This document shows, piece by piece, positions 57,562-63,183 of a stretch of 64,000 nt of DNA; the stretch's first letter is position 1, and every line of letters starts with the position of its first letter. The notes under the pieces are model-generated. The model was given only the letters and a program-made list of their open reading frames with translations, was not told where the DNA came from and ran no database searches. Source of the DNA: an uncultured Verrucomicrobiales bacterium (GTDB lineage Bacteria; Verrucomicrobiota; Verrucomicrobiia; Verrucomicrobiales; Akkermansiaceae). A program made the translations under genes and the position numbers. The stretch lies in the NCBI GenBank assembly GCA_937928545.1, contig CALGJQ010000011.1, positions 62,001 to 126,000 of the forward strand. Direction: 5' to 3'.

Positions 57562-57595
57562 GATGCTCAAAACCGTAACTCTAGCCGCAATAAAA

Positions 57596-58288
57596 ATGAA
57601 CCTCACCATCATCTGCTGTACTATCCTTCTCGCTCTTCCATTGTTTGCTCAAGAGAAAGAAAAAAAAGCCCCACACCCTGCGACCACCGCCGTTCTCACA
57701 TGGGTGAAAGCAGTGAAATCTGACACTCTTACGCCAAAGGACACACCTTTCCGCCCCAAAGACCTTGTTGCTTTAAAATCCGCTTCCAATAACGAAGGAG
57801 ACGTTCAAAAAAAGCTCGCAGAATTTATCATCGAAAACAAAAAGGGACTCCACTTTGTATTGAACAAAAAGAACCCAACAAAAGGCTTCTTAATATCAGA
57901 TGACAAAAAGCGTCTCTCAATGGTTAAAGAAGGAGATCGCTGGTTCATCGACACGCTTGCCAGCCTGAGAACAATTAAAGAAGAAGCGCAAAAAGAGACG
58001 GTTCTCGCTGACATCAGAGCATTAACTTCAAACCTTGAGATGTACAAGAACATCGGCGGCCGCTACCCATCCGTCGAGCAAGGTCTAAAGTCTCTTGTCA
58101 AAAAGCCCAACTCTTCACCGCGGCCCCGCCGTTGGGTCCAAAGTATCGACTCTGTCGATTCCCTCAATGATCCGTGGGGAAATCCTTATCAATACCGGCT
58201 CGTGGATGATGCCCCTCAAATCTCATCTCTCGGTCCTGACGGAAAGATTAGCAAAGACGATATCGCCCTCTCAAAAATAGTCCGGTAA
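57596..58288 (+). CDS. Secreted protein with GspG-like head domain
   Basis: About 230 residues from ATG 57596, which gives a clean signal peptide (MNLTIICCTILLALPLFAQ); ATG 57563 is an alternative. The middle is Lys-rich and unassigned. The last 95 or so residues match the C-terminal domain of type II secretion major pseudopilin GspG: LEMYKNIGGRYPSVEQGL, DPWGNPYQYR and SLGPDGKISKDD, including the calcium-loop-like end. The usual prepilin N-terminal helix and its Gly-Phe cleavage site are absent, so it is not a standard pilin. Role unknown. Confidence 0.75.
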   Translation: MNLTIICCTILLALPLFAQEKEKKAPHPATTAVLTWVKAVKSDTLTPKDTPFRPKDLVALKSASNNEGDVQKKLAEFIIENKKGLHFVLNKKNPTKGFLISDDKKRLSMVKEGDRWFIDTLASLRTIKEEAQKETVLADIRALTSNLEMYKNIGGRYPSVEQGLKSLVKKPNSSPRPRRWVQSIDSVDSLNDPWGNPYQYRLVDDAPQISSLGPDGKISKDDIALSKIVR

Positions 58289-58399: not shown

Positions 58400-58467
58400 G
58401 CAAATCCTCCGAATCTTCACATTCGGATCATCAAGCCTTCACATAGCCCTTTCATCGTCCCAGCACG

Positions 58468-60381
58468 ATGAAAGCCATCCTATCTATCCTCGCCGCGCTC
58501 ACGACCTTCACGCACGCCTCTGAGCAATCTCCTCACTTCCAAATTCACGGGAAGCATCAAGTCGATTCCTTCCCGCTGAAATCCTCGCACTCCGAGGTCA
58601 CGATCACCGGCCCCATTGCCGAGGTCACTCTCACCCAAACTTACACCAACGATGGCGACGCTCCCATCGATGCCACCTATCTCTTCCCCGCTTCTACCAA
58701 AGCCGCCGTCCATGGCATGACGATGACAATCGGCGACCGAACCATCGTCGCGGAAATCCAAGAGAAAGAAAAAGCCCGCGCCACTTTCGAAAAGGCCAAG
58801 AGCCAAAACAAGTCCGCCAGCCTCCTCACTCAGAAACGCCCTAATGTCTTCTCGATGGAGGTCGCCCGCATTCTCCCCGGCGACGAACTCAGCCTCACGC
58901 TGCGTTACTCCGAAATTCTCGTCCCGAACTCCAGCACCTACGAATTCGTCATCCCCACCGCCATCGGTCCGCGCTACGAAGGCGAGAGCAAAAGCCAAAA
59001 AAGCATCGCCAACCCTTTCCTAGATCAAGGCGCTAGCATCCCCACTCGCTTCTCACTCTCTCTTGCTCTCACCAGCCCGCTTCCCATCAAATCACTCGCT
59101 TGCCCGAGCCACGAATCAGCCAAGATCCACTTCGACAGCAAAACCGAAGCCAAACTCCTTCTCCCAAGCACCACGCCCGACCGCGATTTCGTCCTCCGTT
59201 ATCAGCTCGCCGGACAAAAAATCCAAAGCGGACTTCTCAGCCACCAAGGCCCTGACGAAAACACCTTCCTTCTCCAAATCGAGTCCCCCATCGACGTCTC
59301 TCCACAAGACATCCCCGAGCGCGACTTCATCTTCGTGGTCGATGTCTCCGGCTCCATGACCGGCTTCCCCCTCAATCTCGCCAAAGACCTCTTCCGCGAG
59401 CTCACCACCGCTCTGCGACCCGAAGACAGCTTCAACATGCTCCTCTTCGCCGGAGACAATCAAATCCTCTCACCCCAATCCCTTCCAGCAACCCCCGCGA
59501 ACATTAAACAAGCCATCCACTTCCTCCAGAGCAAACGCGGCGGCGGCGGCACCAAGCTCCTCAACGCGCTCGACCAAGCCTTCGATCTCCCTCACGACCA
59601 CGATCGCTCCCGCTCGCTCGTCCTGATCTCAGATGGCTTCATCTCGGCCGAAGTCGAAGTCTTCGACCTCATCAAAAACAAAGCGAAAGGAACCAACATC
59701 TTCCCTCTCGGGGTCGGCTCCAGCGTCAACCGTCACCTCATCGAGGGCCTCAGCCACTTTGCGGGAAACGATCACGTCATCGTCTCCCACTCCACCGAAA
59801 GCGACGCTGCGAAAGAACGCTTCATCAAGTCCATCTCCCTCCCTGTCCTGACCAATATTCAAGTGAAGGCCGAAGGCGTCACCCTCAGTGATCTCCTTCC
59901 CGCCCGTCAGCCCGACCTCTTTGCCGGACAACCGCTCTCCCTCGTCGGGAAGTGGACAGGCAAAAGCGGAACAATCACCATGACCGGCACCACCGGAAGC
60001 GGAAAGAAGATCTCACAGAGCTTCACCATCAGCCCCGAACAAAGCGAACCCACTCTCCCCATCCTCTGGGCCCGCAACAAAGTACGGGAACTCTCTGACT
60101 TCGCCACCCTCTCGAAGCGTGACTCTGAAAAAGAAGAAGTGACGCGACTCGGTCTCAAATACCAACTCCTCACGCCCTACACCTCCTTCGTGGCTGTCGC
60201 GCCAGAAACCCGCAGTAACAAAAACAACAGCGTGGCAGTCAAACAAGCCCTCCCGCTTCCCAAAGGAGTCTCGAACCATGCCAAAACCGGGTCATCAGGA
60301 TCAGTCCCAGAACCCGGCACCGGACTACTCGTCATCCTCGTCGGCCTCCTCACCCTCGGTCTCCGCGTTCGCCGCAGCTAA
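58468..60381 (+). CDS. VIT and vWA domain protein with PEP-CTERM tail
   Basis: 637 residues. Signal peptide at 1-17. VIT domain about 30-160 (SEVTITGPIAEVTLTQTY, KARATFEKAKSQNKSASLL in part, LPGDELSLTLRYSEI). vWA domain from about 285 with an intact MIDAS start DVSGSM (D292) and SRSLVLISDGFISAEV. The C terminus is VPEPGTGLLVILVGLLTLGL and RVRRS: PEP motif (614-616), hydrophobic helix and Arg cluster, a PEP-CTERM sorting signal. It is followed 19 bases later by an exosortase gene, so it is probably that enzyme's substrate. Similar VIT-vWA proteins are partners of dedicated sortases and exosortases in other phyla. Confidence 0.9.
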   Translation: MKAILSILAALTTFTHASEQSPHFQIHGKHQVDSFPLKSSHSEVTITGPIAEVTLTQTYTNDGDAPIDATYLFPASTKAAVHGMTMTIGDRTIVAEIQEKEKARATFEKAKSQNKSASLLTQKRPNVFSMEVARILPGDELSLTLRYSEILVPNSSTYEFVIPTAIGPRYEGESKSQKSIANPFLDQGASIPTRFSLSLALTSPLPIKSLACPSHESAKIHFDSKTEAKLLLPSTTPDRDFVLRYQLAGQKIQSGLLSHQGPDENTFLLQIESPIDVSPQDIPERDFIFVVDVSGSMTGFPLNLAKDLFRELTTALRPEDSFNMLLFAGDNQILSPQSLPATPANIKQAIHFLQSKRGGGGTKLLNALDQAFDLPHDHDRSRSLVLISDGFISAEVEVFDLIKNKAKGTNIFPLGVGSSVNRHLIEGLSHFAGNDHVIVSHSTESDAAKERFIKSISLPVLTNIQVKAEGVTLSDLLPARQPDLFAGQPLSLVGKWTGKSGTITMTGTTGSGKKISQSFTISPEQSEPTLPILWARNKVRELSDFATLSKRDSEKEEVTRLGLKYQLLTPYTSFVAVAPETRSNKNNSVAVKQALPLPKGVSNHAKTGSSGSVPEPGTGLLVILVGLLTLGLRVRRS

Positions 60382-60400
60382 CTTTCCCCGGACAACTGAG

Positions 60401-61684
60401 ATGAACACCCGAAAGCTCCTCGCTCTCATCGCCCTCACGGTCGCCTTCTTCCCAGTCCTGAACTGGTATTGGCTCCGTCTCGGCAATGGTAGCGGGGAGC
60501 CCTTCGGCCTACTCGCCCTTGCTCTCGCGGTCGGCTTCGCCCTGCAGGATCGCCAGCCCGCTCAGCTTCGCTTTGCAGAAATCTCCCTCCTCATCTACGC
60601 GATCGGCCTCTTCTTCCTCCCCCCGCTCCTCCGCAGTATCCCCGCCCTCGCCACCATTGCCTTCCTCTCCGGAATGCACCGTCAAGCGGGACAATTCGCC
60701 CTGCTCCTCCTCTCACTCCCAGTTCAAGCCTCACTCGATTTCTTCCTCGGCTATCCCTTCCGCCTCATCACGGCCGAAGGTTCCCGCCTGCTCGTGAACC
60801 TCCTTGGCTATCCCGTCGAGCGGCTAGGCGTCCAACTCTCGTTAAAAGGCGTCATCGTCTCGGTCGATCCGCCCTGCAGCGGTCTCCAGATGCTCTGGGC
60901 CACCGCGCTCCTCACCGCCATCCTCGCCGCTCTCTTCCGCCTCAGTTACTTCCGCACCTTCAAGCTCAGCCTCATCGCCCTGACCCTCTGCCTCCTCGCC
61001 AACATCCTCCGCGCAGCCTTCCTCTTCTTCCCCGAGTCAGGAATGATCACTCTCCCAGGATTCCTACACGAAGGAATGGGCCTCCTCTTCTTTGCCCTCG
61101 CTAGTCTCGTCCTTTGCCAAATGGCTCGCAGCTTTCAAAAAGCCACGCCCTCCCTTCCTCTTCCTAAAAAACAAAACCCCACTCGCCTCCTCACTCTCGC
61201 CTGCGGAGTTTCACTCATCACCCTCCTTCCTGCCCGAACTCACAGTCCAAACCCGCCCTCAAACTTCGAAAGCCTCAGCACATATCACGGACGGGCAGTC
61301 GAGGAAGTCTCTCTCAGCCCCCGCGAAGAATCATTCGCCGAAAATTTCCCCGGTCAGCTCAAGATCTACCGCGTCGGGCATGACACCCTCATCATTCGCC
61401 GCATCACGAAAGCCTCCCGCATGCTCCACCCCAGCTATCATTGCCTCAAAGCGGAAGGCTTCATCATCAGCGATTCTCAAATCGAAAGCGACGACCAAGG
61501 CCAGCCCTTCCTCCGCTACCGCGCCACTCGAAATGACGAAGCCTTCCTCGTCAGCGAAAAGATCCGCGATCTCCAAAACACCAAGCAATGGACTGAAGTC
61601 TCGGCCTGGTATTGGCATGCCCTCTTCCACCCAAACTCCGGCCCTTGGGAAGCCGAAACTCTCATGACCCCAATCCAACTATGA
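60401..61684 (+). CDS. Exosortase with C-terminal periplasmic domain
   Basis: 427 residues from ATG 60401. The first 270 residues contain about eight membrane helices and the exosortase active site: C159 in PPCSGLQMLW, R204 in ANILRAAFLFF and H223 in FLHEGMGLLFF. The remaining part (about 290-427) is a soluble region, with LHPSYHCLKAEGF reminiscent of EpsI-like domains fused to some exosortases. It would cleave and transfer PEP-CTERM proteins at the membrane. It is placed between its likely substrate (VIT-vWA) and a membrane protein gene that it overlaps by 4 bases. Confidence 0.9.
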   Translation: MNTRKLLALIALTVAFFPVLNWYWLRLGNGSGEPFGLLALALAVGFALQDRQPAQLRFAEISLLIYAIGLFFLPPLLRSIPALATIAFLSGMHRQAGQFALLLLSLPVQASLDFFLGYPFRLITAEGSRLLVNLLGYPVERLGVQLSLKGVIVSVDPPCSGLQMLWATALLTAILAALFRLSYFRTFKLSLIALTLCLLANILRAAFLFFPESGMITLPGFLHEGMGLLFFALASLVLCQMARSFQKATPSLPLPKKQNPTRLLTLACGVSLITLLPARTHSPNPPSNFESLSTYHGRAVEEVSLSPREESFAENFPGQLKIYRVGHDTLIIRRITKASRMLHPSYHCLKAEGFIISDSQIESDDQGQPFLRYRATRNDEAFLVSEKIRDLQNTKQWTEVSAWYWHALFHPNSGPWEAETLMTPIQL

Positions 61685-62430
61685 ACGAACAAAATACCAA
61701 TAGCCTCGGCCATCTCTTCGAAGGCCTCCTCAAAAGCCCGCTGACTCTGATCGAAGAGATTCGCGCGAACAAAAACCCCGGACACATCATCGGGAAGCTC
61801 CTCCTCATCACCCTCGTCGGCTTCCTGATCTTTGGAGTCACTCTGGGCAGTTTCTCCTTCGGCGAACAACTCTGGGCCGCGCCCGTGAAAGCCCTTCTCG
61901 GCATCAGCTTAAGCACCATCATTTGCCTCCCTAGCCTTTACATCTTCTCCGCTCTCACCGGCACGAGCTTGGGGATGAAAGAGATCGCGCAAGGAATGGC
62001 CGGAGCCCTCGCTCTCATCGCCAGCCTTCTTCTCGGCTTCACGCCAGTTCTCTGGGTTTTCTCTCAATCGACCACCTCCGAGGCCTTCTTCGGCTTCCTC
62101 GTTCTCCTCACCTGGCTCATCGCCCTTTTCTTCGGGACTGGCTTCCTCATCAAAATGCTGACCCAAAGCGGCACCGAAAAAAACACCCCCCTCAAAATTT
62201 GGATCGGGATTTTCCTCCTCGTCACCCTACAAATGTCGACTACCCTCCGCCCGCTCATCGGGACGTCTGATCAATTTTTCAACAGCGAGAAACGCTTCTT
62301 CCTCGCACACTGGGCCATGGACACCGAACCCGACGGCTTGGGCTTCAATCGAGGCGGACCACCTTCCGGCGATGAGAGTCCAAAGAAGAAGAAAGGGAAC
62401 TCAAAGGAAAACCCCTTCCTCGAAGAATAA
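61681..62430 (+). CDS. Multi-pass membrane protein (Yip1-like) in the exosortase unit
   Basis: 249 residues; its ATG overlaps the exosortase stop by 4 bases (ATGA at 61681). About five membrane helices, with the common pattern IIGKLLLITLVGFLIFG, a middle GTSLGMKEIAQGMAGA and IWIGIFLLVTLQ. It ends in a hydrophilic Lys/Pro tail. It resembles Yip1-domain-like proteins, which are structural rather than catalytic, but assignment is weak. The coupling suggests a helper role for the exosortase. Confidence 0.7.
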   Translation: MNEQNTNSLGHLFEGLLKSPLTLIEEIRANKNPGHIIGKLLLITLVGFLIFGVTLGSFSFGEQLWAAPVKALLGISLSTIICLPSLYIFSALTGTSLGMKEIAQGMAGALALIASLLLGFTPVLWVFSQSTTSEAFFGFLVLLTWLIALFFGTGFLIKMLTQSGTEKNTPLKIWIGIFLLVTLQMSTTLRPLIGTSDQFFNSEKRFFLAHWAMDTEPDGLGFNRGGPPSGDESPKKKKGNSKENPFLEE

Positions 62431-62515
62431 TATGGAGAGCGGGCTTGTAGCCCGCTTACCCTCTGCAAAAGCCCTCTTGGTTGTGGATGAAGCGGGCTAC
62501 AAGCCCACTCTCCTT
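62431..62515. repeat. REP-like element, copy 1
   Basis: Left arm GGAGAGCGGGCTTGTAGCCC and right arm ending GGGCTACAAGCCCACTCTCC are inverted copies around a spacer of about 40 bases. It begins directly after the membrane protein stop. Within the left arm AGCGGGCTTGTAGCCCGCT is itself a hairpin. Confidence 0.8.
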
Positions 62516-62572
62516 ATTCCCACTCTCCGCCCCGCCCATCGGGAGGTCGGATGACCTCTTCCTCAAGTAACA

Positions 62573-62652
62573 TTATGGAGAGCGGGCTTGCAGCCCGCTT
62601 ACCCTCAACCAAGTCCCCTCTCAAAACCAAGCGGGCTACAAGCCCACTCTCC
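62573..62652. repeat. REP-like element, copy 2
   Basis: Second copy of the same element: left arm GGAGAGCGGGCTTGCAGCCC, right arm GGGCTACAAGCCCACTCTCC. Orientation matches copy 1, with 57 bases between the copies. It abuts the stop of the Nudix gene. The two copies and the solitary arm at 50345 form one dispersed family. Confidence 0.8.
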
Positions 62653-63183
62653 TTATTTCCACCCTCGCCAACGCCCCAAAGACTTCTCCCCAAAAACGAC
62701 ATCGTGCCAGATGATCTTCTCTTCGGCGAAGAGGAACTTAGCATCAAAACTCTGTCCCTTCAGCGCTTGCCGCAGCCAGTAGGAATCATCTTCCCACATC
62801 CGCTCAAAAGGAATCTCGGCAATCTCACACCAATGAGGATTCGCCTCGCGAGTCGCGGTGGGCGTGCCTTCGAATTCCGTCGCGGTATAAACGTGGCAAT
62901 GAATATCCGGCAAATCCGACATCGCGAACCACAGCTCCCCCCGCTTCACCGGATTCAGACAAGTGATGTGCAGTTCTTCTTGGCATTCACGAATCACTCC
63001 CTCTTCCGGCGTTTCACCGGGATCGATTTTCCCGCCGGGGCCATTGATCTTTCCCATCCCGATTCCAGTGAGCTTCTCGATCAAGAGAACCCGACTCCCC
63101 TGATGCACAAACATCAAGGTTGCATGAAGATCTGGCTTCCAATTCGCCCAATCTGGCGTGTCGTTATATTGATTCTCGGGCAT
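62653..63183 (-). CDS. Nudix hydrolase (MutT/MTH1-like)
   Basis: 176 residues from ATG 63183. The Nudix box is intact: [16 protein letters not shown] with RECQEEL (GG, Glu, REx2EE positions). The rest ([26 protein letters not shown]) resembles 8-oxo-dGTP diphosphatases of the MTH1 type, which clean oxidised nucleotides. The exact substrate is inferred. The start overlaps the gcvP stop by about 20 bases. Confidence 0.88.

Follow-up and report, generated by a model that had tools for sequence, protein, structure and literature searches.

The 64,000-nucleotide stretch analysed here (the window; positions 62,001 to 126,000 of the forward strand of contig CALGJQ010000011.1, assembly GCA_937928545.1, from an uncultured Verrucomicrobiales bacterium of the Akkermansiaceae) carries, towards its end, three adjoining genes that encode a VIT-vWA protein with a C-terminal PEP-CTERM sorting tail, an exosortase, and a Yip1-like membrane protein (yipB). 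In front of them lies an array of short repeats resembling the tag of the regulator CreB (Table 1). The initial annotation, made from the sequence alone, had placed all three genes correctly: the exosortase gene starts 19 bases past the stop codon of the VIT-vWA gene, and the third gene overlaps the end of the exosortase gene by four bases.

Table 1. Features of the exosortase unit, in positions of the window.
Feature	Position	Strand	Basis or detail
CreB-tag-like array, four half-sites with 11-bp period (TCCTC, TTCAC, ATCAT, TTCAC)	58405..58442	+	ends 25 bases upstream of the VIT start codon
VIT-vWA target protein, 637 aa	58468..60381	+	NCBIfam and Pfam matches
VIT domain, residues 37-147	58576..58908	+	PF08487, 116.9 bits, above cut-off
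vWA domain, residues 286-444	59323..59799	+	PF00092, best 54.7 bits, above cut-off
PEP-CTERM sorting tail, residues 613-636 (P614-E615-P616)	60304..60375	+	TIGR02595, 17.6 bits
Exosortase, 427 aa; membrane core (residues ~1-248) and C-terminal extracytoplasmic domain (~290-427)	60401..61684	+	PF09721, AlphaFold2
Codon of predicted catalytic Cys159	60875..60877	+	sequence; invariant residue
Exosortase C-terminal domain	61268..61681	+	invariant R333, H343, C348, G353, W403, G414-P415-W416
Yip1-like membrane protein (yipB), 249 aa	61681..62430	+	4-base overlap with exosortase end (61684)

The VIT, vWA and TIGR02595 matches bear out a VIT-vWA protein that ends in a PEP-CTERM signal. In the vWA domain, D292-x-S294-x-S296, T362 and D389, which we take to be the MIDAS pattern (the metal site), showed no variation in 16 of 16 aligned VIT-vWA partners. 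The tail was narrowly above the NCBIfam cut-off of 16 bits; the Pfam PEP-CTERM model gave 16.8 bits in the protein scan, below its cut-off of 20.7, and 21.5 bits in the genome scan. The PEP of the tail was constant in all 16 aligned partners. The whole protein scored 376 bits against TIGR03788, below the cut-off of 551.65, and showed no match to TIGR04477 at E ≤ 0.1. Among human-type proteins, PARP4 (E 8.5e-35) and ITIH4 (E 2.4e-22) matched it over both domains and ITIH1 (E 6.5e-11) over the vWA domain only. Long orthologues were present in 15 of the 58 related genomes, the window's genome counted.

The enzyme belongs to the exosortase superfamily, as seen from PF09721 (92 bits; cut-off 25.7) and TIGR04178 (45.2 bits; cut-off 23). 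Cys159, Arg204 and His223 are intact, as had been noted, and were invariant in 35/35 aligned family members. The fused periplasmic domain, initially suggested as a specific part of the unit, proved to be a regular component of the family, either fused or encoded by an overlapping gene of its own, the latter in many relatives. The residues listed for this domain in Table 1 were invariant in 35 aligned sequences, and five separate C-terminal-domain genes that were scanned matched only the second half of XrtT. The position of the domain and its H-S-C pattern give the impression of a resemblance to EpsI, which is fused to or adjoins EpsH in the systems described in the accessible text of PMC1569441. 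The AlphaFold2 model of the enzyme had a mean predicted local distance difference test score (pLDDT) of 87.8 and a predicted template modelling score of 0.82; no solved relative was found by sequence (best E 0.42) or among PDB folds at E ≤ 0.001.

Do the enzyme and the VIT protein travel together? Orthologues of the enzyme (at least ~38% identity) were found in 13 of the 58 related genomes, the window's genome included (in G043 in two contig pieces), and a VIT-vWA gene lay directly upstream in 13 of 13. A profile (A1) built from 12 enzyme sequences then gave 48 loci in a named genome collection; of 387 genomes of the phylum, 19 had a match. The family loci were labelled Verrucomicrobiota, Planctomycetota, Lentisphaerota, Pseudomonadota, Thermodesulfobacteriota, Acidobacteriota, Riflebacteria and, for one metagenome-assembled genome (MAG), Cyanobacteria. 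After exclusion of duplicates, of L046 (split between contigs) and of L150 (half a gene), 63 non-redundant loci remained, and a fixed rule recorded 56 of them as having a VIT frame immediately upstream in the same orientation. Three misses (L144, L169 and L211) were due to stop-to-stop frame artefacts, and reading by hand gave 59/63; with the window and L252 added, the VIT protein was directly upstream in cis in 61 of 65 loci. The genomes of the remaining four (L136, L137, L138 and L154) each held one strong VIT-vWA relative elsewhere (800-851 bits), in all four cases with a PEP tail; G437 also had a weaker relative of 217 bits. PEP was found near the C-terminus in all of the 58 loci checked except L140, which has PEA. 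On the other hand, a VIT neighbour was found at 0 of 34 other exosortase loci, one of which (L249) had no upstream DNA and two of which (L261, L262) had ~300 bases only. These results indicate that the enzyme and its VIT target belong together, as first proposed, with the reservation that the profile was made from VIT-paired members and may favour such members.

The partners came in two builds: soluble VIT-vWA proteins like TIGR03788 and VIT proteins with multiple transmembrane segments (multi-TM) like TIGR04477. The nine multi-TM partners scanned scored 43-168 bits against TIGR04477, all below the cut-off of 250. One genome (G447) holds two family exosortases (L140 and L252), and a separate multi-TM VIT protein precedes each of them. 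In one MAG, stops and a frame change interrupt the VIT and exosortase genes (L139:5722-9299), which are either pseudogenes or assembly errors. At L136, L137 and L154, in a Verrucomicrobiaceae group, the exosortase is preceded by an 834-aa gene in place of VIT; that of L136 has kinase, PEGA and sulfatase-modifying-factor domains and overlaps the exosortase by eight bases.

We read the unit as a largely one-substrate exosortase system under the control of the CreBC two-component system, with a probability of about two in three. As described in the accessible part of PMC3237569, a dedicated sorting system is an enzyme paired with a single target in the genome. Among 35 genomes examined with PF09721, the family enzyme was the sole exosortase found in nine (G001, G015, G327, G439, G448, G451, G453, G455 and G456). 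The adjacent VIT protein was the best PEP-CTERM match (E ≤ 0.2) in five of these (G448, G451, G453, G455 and G456), its tail being above the PEP-CTERM cut-off in G448, G453 and G456; G451 had one further weak match. The one-enzyme/one-target arrangement suggested by the initial annotation is seen in some genomes, in which this is the only such pair found, with exceptions: G001, G015 and G327 have the family enzyme as their sole exosortase yet show 21, 17 and 7 PEP-CTERM matches (E ≤ 0.01). The picture is less clear for G439 (Xylophilus), where the VIT tail was not among the PEP-CTERM matches, of which there were two weak ones elsewhere.

These four genomes weigh against a single client. The first three fit a reading in which the exosortase serves several of the genome's ~60 PEP-CTERM proteins, the VIT-vWA protein being merely the closest one; the PEP motif that all 16 aligned partners share with general tails is also in line with it. 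We regard this as quite unlikely. The window's genome, with 68 PEP-CTERM matches at E ≤ 10 (56 above cut-off), has three exosortase matches, one of them interrupted; an exosortase there other than the window's adjoins an exopolysaccharide (EPS) sugar transferase and scores 139.1 bits against TIGR02602, above the cut-off. Furthermore, the tails differ: an RR[RK] cluster was found in 0 of 12 genus VIT tails against 35 of 40 other tails of the window's genome (40 of its 55 other above-cut-off tails were read), and the distance from PEP to the first basic residue was 16 residues in the former and 14-16 in the latter. The 12 genus tails are orthologues, so this difference represents one lineage. 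In addition, five of the nine single-exosortase genomes offered no better target than the VIT protein, and two of the exceptions, G001 and G015, are incomplete genomes (completeness was given for three genomes: G001, 86%; G015, 65%; and G327, 92%).

Could a general exosortase sort the VIT-vWA protein instead, leaving the adjacent enzyme another role? In the genus, the syntenic location that lies between fdhD and the NUDIX/gcv genes shows the unit in several states. The order VIT-enzyme-yipB is complete in the window and in G003, G015, G020, G021 and G026, with both flanks not visible on every contig. G013 has VIT and yipB and, as judged by eye, a short remainder of the exosortase, and G019 is similar; G014 has only fragments of VIT and yipB; and G010, G016 and G025 have yipB alone. 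In G013 and G019 the adjacent exosortase has thus been lost, whereas the VIT gene is still intact, tail included, and the general exosortase is retained. In this pair the ratio of nonsynonymous to synonymous substitution rates was 0.155 for VIT, near the 0.123 of FdhD, which suggests that the VIT protein is under purifying selection and not simply useless without its enzyme. This weighs against strict dependence on the neighbour: the target can persist without the enzyme or be served by the general exosortase. On the other hand, G010, G016 and G025 have lost both genes from this one location, the genes are decaying in G014, and the pairing extends across phyla and includes single-exosortase genomes. 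A general exosortase as the sorting enzyme is very unlikely in our view. In several genus members, gcvP beside gcvH was also reduced to a short remnant or was undetected (L041:8332-8589; L107:8209-8355; L108, L109, L111 and L114).

The second part of our reading, CreBC control of the dedicated pair, draws on neighbouring genes and on promoters. creB, creC or creD adjoins the unit in 12 loci (L039, L141, L146, L153, L162, L170 from Xylophilus, L202, L204, L211, L212, L213 and L215); these come from 16 of 74 loci above thresholds, after L140, L151, L158 and L173 were dropped for weak response-regulator or kinase matches, in a survey in which many contigs were short. The Cre proteins of three loci passed the NCBIfam cut-offs, with scores of 466 and 547 bits for CreC (cut-off 356), 302 for CreB (273) and 480 for CreD (275).

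The third gene of the unit is also linked to these regulators. The yipB model consists of five long helices (mean pLDDT 71), and the protein matched no Pfam or NCBIfam family, Yip1 included, at E ≤ 0.1 and no PDB fold at E ≤ 0.001. Relatives of yipB were present in 36 of the 58 related genomes, many of which lack the family exosortase; in the window's genome, the sole match was the window's own third gene. In five genus genomes (G002, G004, G009, G017 and G026), yipB ends a run of creB-creC-yipA-yipB, and in nine more, the window's included, yipA follows creC with no yipB seen there. The yipA-yipB pair also occurs without creC in the examined flank (L115, L118-L120, L122 and L124-L126). The suggestion that the Yip1-like gene is a specific part of the sorting unit had to be given up, as it is widespread without the enzyme and ends the creBC run in the five genomes. 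In G008, creB, creC, VIT, exosortase, yipA and yipB stand in a row. From the operon linkage of yipA and yipB and this gene order, we infer that the window unit is a relocated tail of the creBC operon.

In the accessible text of PMC4689548, the CreB tag is given as TTCACN6TTCAC. At VIT genes it takes the form of an 11-bp direct-repeat array. Beyond the genus, 45 VIT genes were checked for the tag with at most one mismatch: 19 have it nearby, where shuffled sequences predict 0.64. A four-half-site score of at least 15.5 was reached by 34 of 38 VIT-vWA genes; of random stretches taken from these loci, 11 of 1311 did so. The 38 were drawn from 44 VIT-vWA genes; L139 (19.0), L256 (17.5) and L036 (16.5, outside the fixed stretch) were omitted, as were L037, L144 and L160, which had no upstream DNA. 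Among the four VIT-vWA genes below this score, L141 and L202 have an array heading their creD or creB run, L170 contains a perfect tag in the stretch from creC to the VIT domain, and L148 has none. Arrays also precede creD at L212, L213 and L215, and the trans VIT genes (L255-L258) and the trans exosortase of L138 have arrays of their own.

In the window, the promoter of the VIT gene carries such an array, with TCCTC and ATCAT as imperfect half-sites, and it can be aligned across 12 sequences of the genus, of which two are VIT fragments. This is the best four-site and the best three-site array of the window on both strands, and the only one scoring at least 16 in 863 kb of the window's genome (22% of 3.98 Mb, mostly taken after the scoring was set). 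The two best three-site arrays in these 863 kb lie in front of the window's VIT gene and between creC and yipA; they differ at 2 of 27 bases, and the latter had been seen before the scan.

Several observations weigh against CreBC control. Scored singly, the published tag fits the window with no fewer than two mismatches, a level seen in 16 of 100 shuffles and, unlike the array, not significant; chance windows attain the array score in 6 of 100. The four-site scoring was set after tag matches near VIT genes had been seen, and one genus contributes 10 of the 38 promoters, which are orthologous and not independent. Units of the multi-TM build (type B) mostly lack arrays (3 of 19, against 6 of 637 random stretches; 19 of 23 such partners were scored, with L152 (score 9), L174 (12) and the cut L168 and L252 omitted). 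The Desulfobulbaceae locus L148 is without any array, no array was found in front of the separate enzymes of L136, L137 and L154, and Cre genes stand beside the unit in the 12 loci only. These points would suit a dedicated sorting unit outside CreBC control, the arrays and neighbours stemming from shared ancestry only. We consider this unlikely, given that the arrays occur in separate lineages, at the trans VIT genes and at the trans exosortase, and that the two best three-site arrays of the 863 kb precede the window's VIT gene and the creC-linked yipA.

We also asked which named exosortase type the enzyme approaches. The best match was XrtQ (NF012182), with 132.8 bits, about half the cut-off of 270, followed by XrtT, XrtN and XrtO, with XrtA lower. 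XrtT (NF033770) gave 85.4 bits, short of its cut-off of 250, over residues 100-409, and the window's enzyme therefore shares the C-terminal half with XrtT. The XrtA or general EpsH type was rejected (TIGR03109, 53.2 against a cut-off of 208 bits; TIGR02602, 57.6 against 105.55), as was XrtN (TIGR04476, 60.9 against 200 bits, together with a target that does not match TIGR04477). In a quick tree, 64 family rows stood on one side of a branch and 24 other exosortases on the opposite side, with a Shimodaira-Hasegawa-like approximate likelihood ratio support of 85; core-profile scores were at least 69.8 bits for family enzymes and at most 44.1 bits, or no match, for the others. Clustering with XrtA and freely varying neighbours had been named as the outcome that would speak against a separate unit, and scores, tree and pairing are all contrary to it.

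The proposal of a further, independently evolved type was not supported. The XrtQ of Xylophilus sp. Leaf220 (365.9 bits), a curated member, falls inside the VIT-paired clade, on a long branch with supports of 84-85, and likewise has creB, creC and a VIT-vWA gene directly upstream and a C-terminal-domain gene downstream; it differs in that this domain is a separate gene there and fused in the window's enzyme. It is the one true XrtQ member examined for the VIT-vWA neighbour, and no plasmid-borne XrtQ was found. Furthermore, a Verrucomicrobium spinosum protein of the same family, likewise from Verrucomicrobia, had been published by 2011 with its PEP-CTERM tail and a cognate exosortase (PMC3237569). 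The section on it (section 12 of the accessible text) does not describe a distinct exosortase clade, a cross-phylum pairing or CreBC. Given the clade shared with this XrtQ and the V. spinosum pair, we take the unit to be genuine, but as the Verrucomicrobial branch of a larger family, not as an isolated new exosortase type. In the literature searched, which left most subscription journals outside, we found no account of the exosortase-VIT pairing across phyla or of its CreBC control, and CreBC and exosortase were not found together.

Related arrangements are known. The class GN sortase (TIGR03784; target TIGR03788) is likewise a dedicated enzyme with a related VIT-vWA target, although the enzyme is unrelated to exosortase. 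It has its own two-component system (TIGR03785 kinase, TIGR03787 regulator), whereas the regulators of the window's family are CreB and CreC. XrtN (TIGR04476), with its VIT target (TIGR04477), is likewise an exosortase with a VIT-domain target, but the window's target matches TIGR03788 instead. Inter-alpha-trypsin inhibitor heavy chains and PARP4 match the target in sequence over VIT and vWA. The heavy chains are trimmed at the C-terminus and joined to a glycan; they have no exosortase, and their processing and linkage chemistry are different. In the accessible sections of PMC3237569, VIT-vWA relatives carry LPXTG or GlyGly-CTERM tails. The class GN target has an LPXTG tail, whereas the window's target has PEP-CTERM. 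The CreBC/CreD envelope regulon has the same regulators and tag, but the regulons described in the accessible text of PMC4689548 are Gammaproteobacterial.

How might such a one-substrate system work? CreC would sense an envelope or metabolic signal, and CreB would bind the array in front of the VIT gene. The VIT-vWA protein would be exported via an N-terminal signal and kept in the membrane by its PEP-CTERM helix until the neighbouring exosortase, using Cys159, Arg204 and His223, cuts at the PEP tail and transfers the protein to an acceptor. The C-terminal domain, judged from the family, probably assists the exosortase. The released protein may then act outside through its VIT domain and its metal-site vWA domain. 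The Yip1-like gene would belong to the CreBC regulon as a second output, would have travelled with the unit and would take no part in the sorting chemistry. More tentatively, and with some doubt on our part, CreBC may drive covalent surface display in several phyla: a heavy-chain-like VIT-vWA protein, its tail removed by its own exosortase, would be attached to a glycan or lipid of the envelope upon disturbance of the wall, and unrelated sorting enzymes would have captured the VIT-vWA family on at least three occasions.

To our knowledge, it is not yet settled to what exosortases attach their clients, and we know of no mechanism for CreD, the best-known output of CreBC, a switch for cell-envelope stress. 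The acceptor question is hard because a genome may hold dozens of clients. In a system cut down to one enzyme and one closely linked client, the C-terminus of a single protein could be read, and in some genomes the enzyme and its VIT client are the only such pair found. The CreBC link would provide a handle for inducing the exosortase unit and offers CreBC a concrete candidate surface effector; CreBC control, as suggested by the DNA arrays, would thus ease the testing of both puzzling systems. The comparison further brings the class GN sortase, XrtN and XrtQ-like systems, all three of which sort VIT proteins, under one recurring theme.

Besides the family enzyme, four genus genomes contain exosortase paralogues with one in-frame TGA each (L226, at G000 contig C6:44231-44953, L347, L348 and L349). 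The TGA falls at the alignment column of the catalytic Cys and is followed by 95-104 open codons. Identity was 38-55% before the TGA and 16-38% after it, the other catalytic residues being partly lost, and the best fold of three paralogues has a hairpin ~19 bases past the TGA. No selenocysteine insertion sequence family was found for them in Rfam at E ≤ 5, and no tRNA-Sec in the window and 40 further stretches (the same 863 kb). These paralogues are candidates for either a selenocysteine exosortase or a conserved truncation.

Two further elements flank the unit. Upstream, the gene at 57563-58288 has a GspG-like C-terminal domain (T2SSG, 68.7 bits, residues 139-231) and a long N-terminal part without a family match; it was rejected as a part of the unit, having no relative in the 13 other neighbourhoods compared. 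Downstream, at 62430-62660, the intergenic DNA contains repeated units around GCGGGCTTG(T/C)AGCCCGC, as read by eye.

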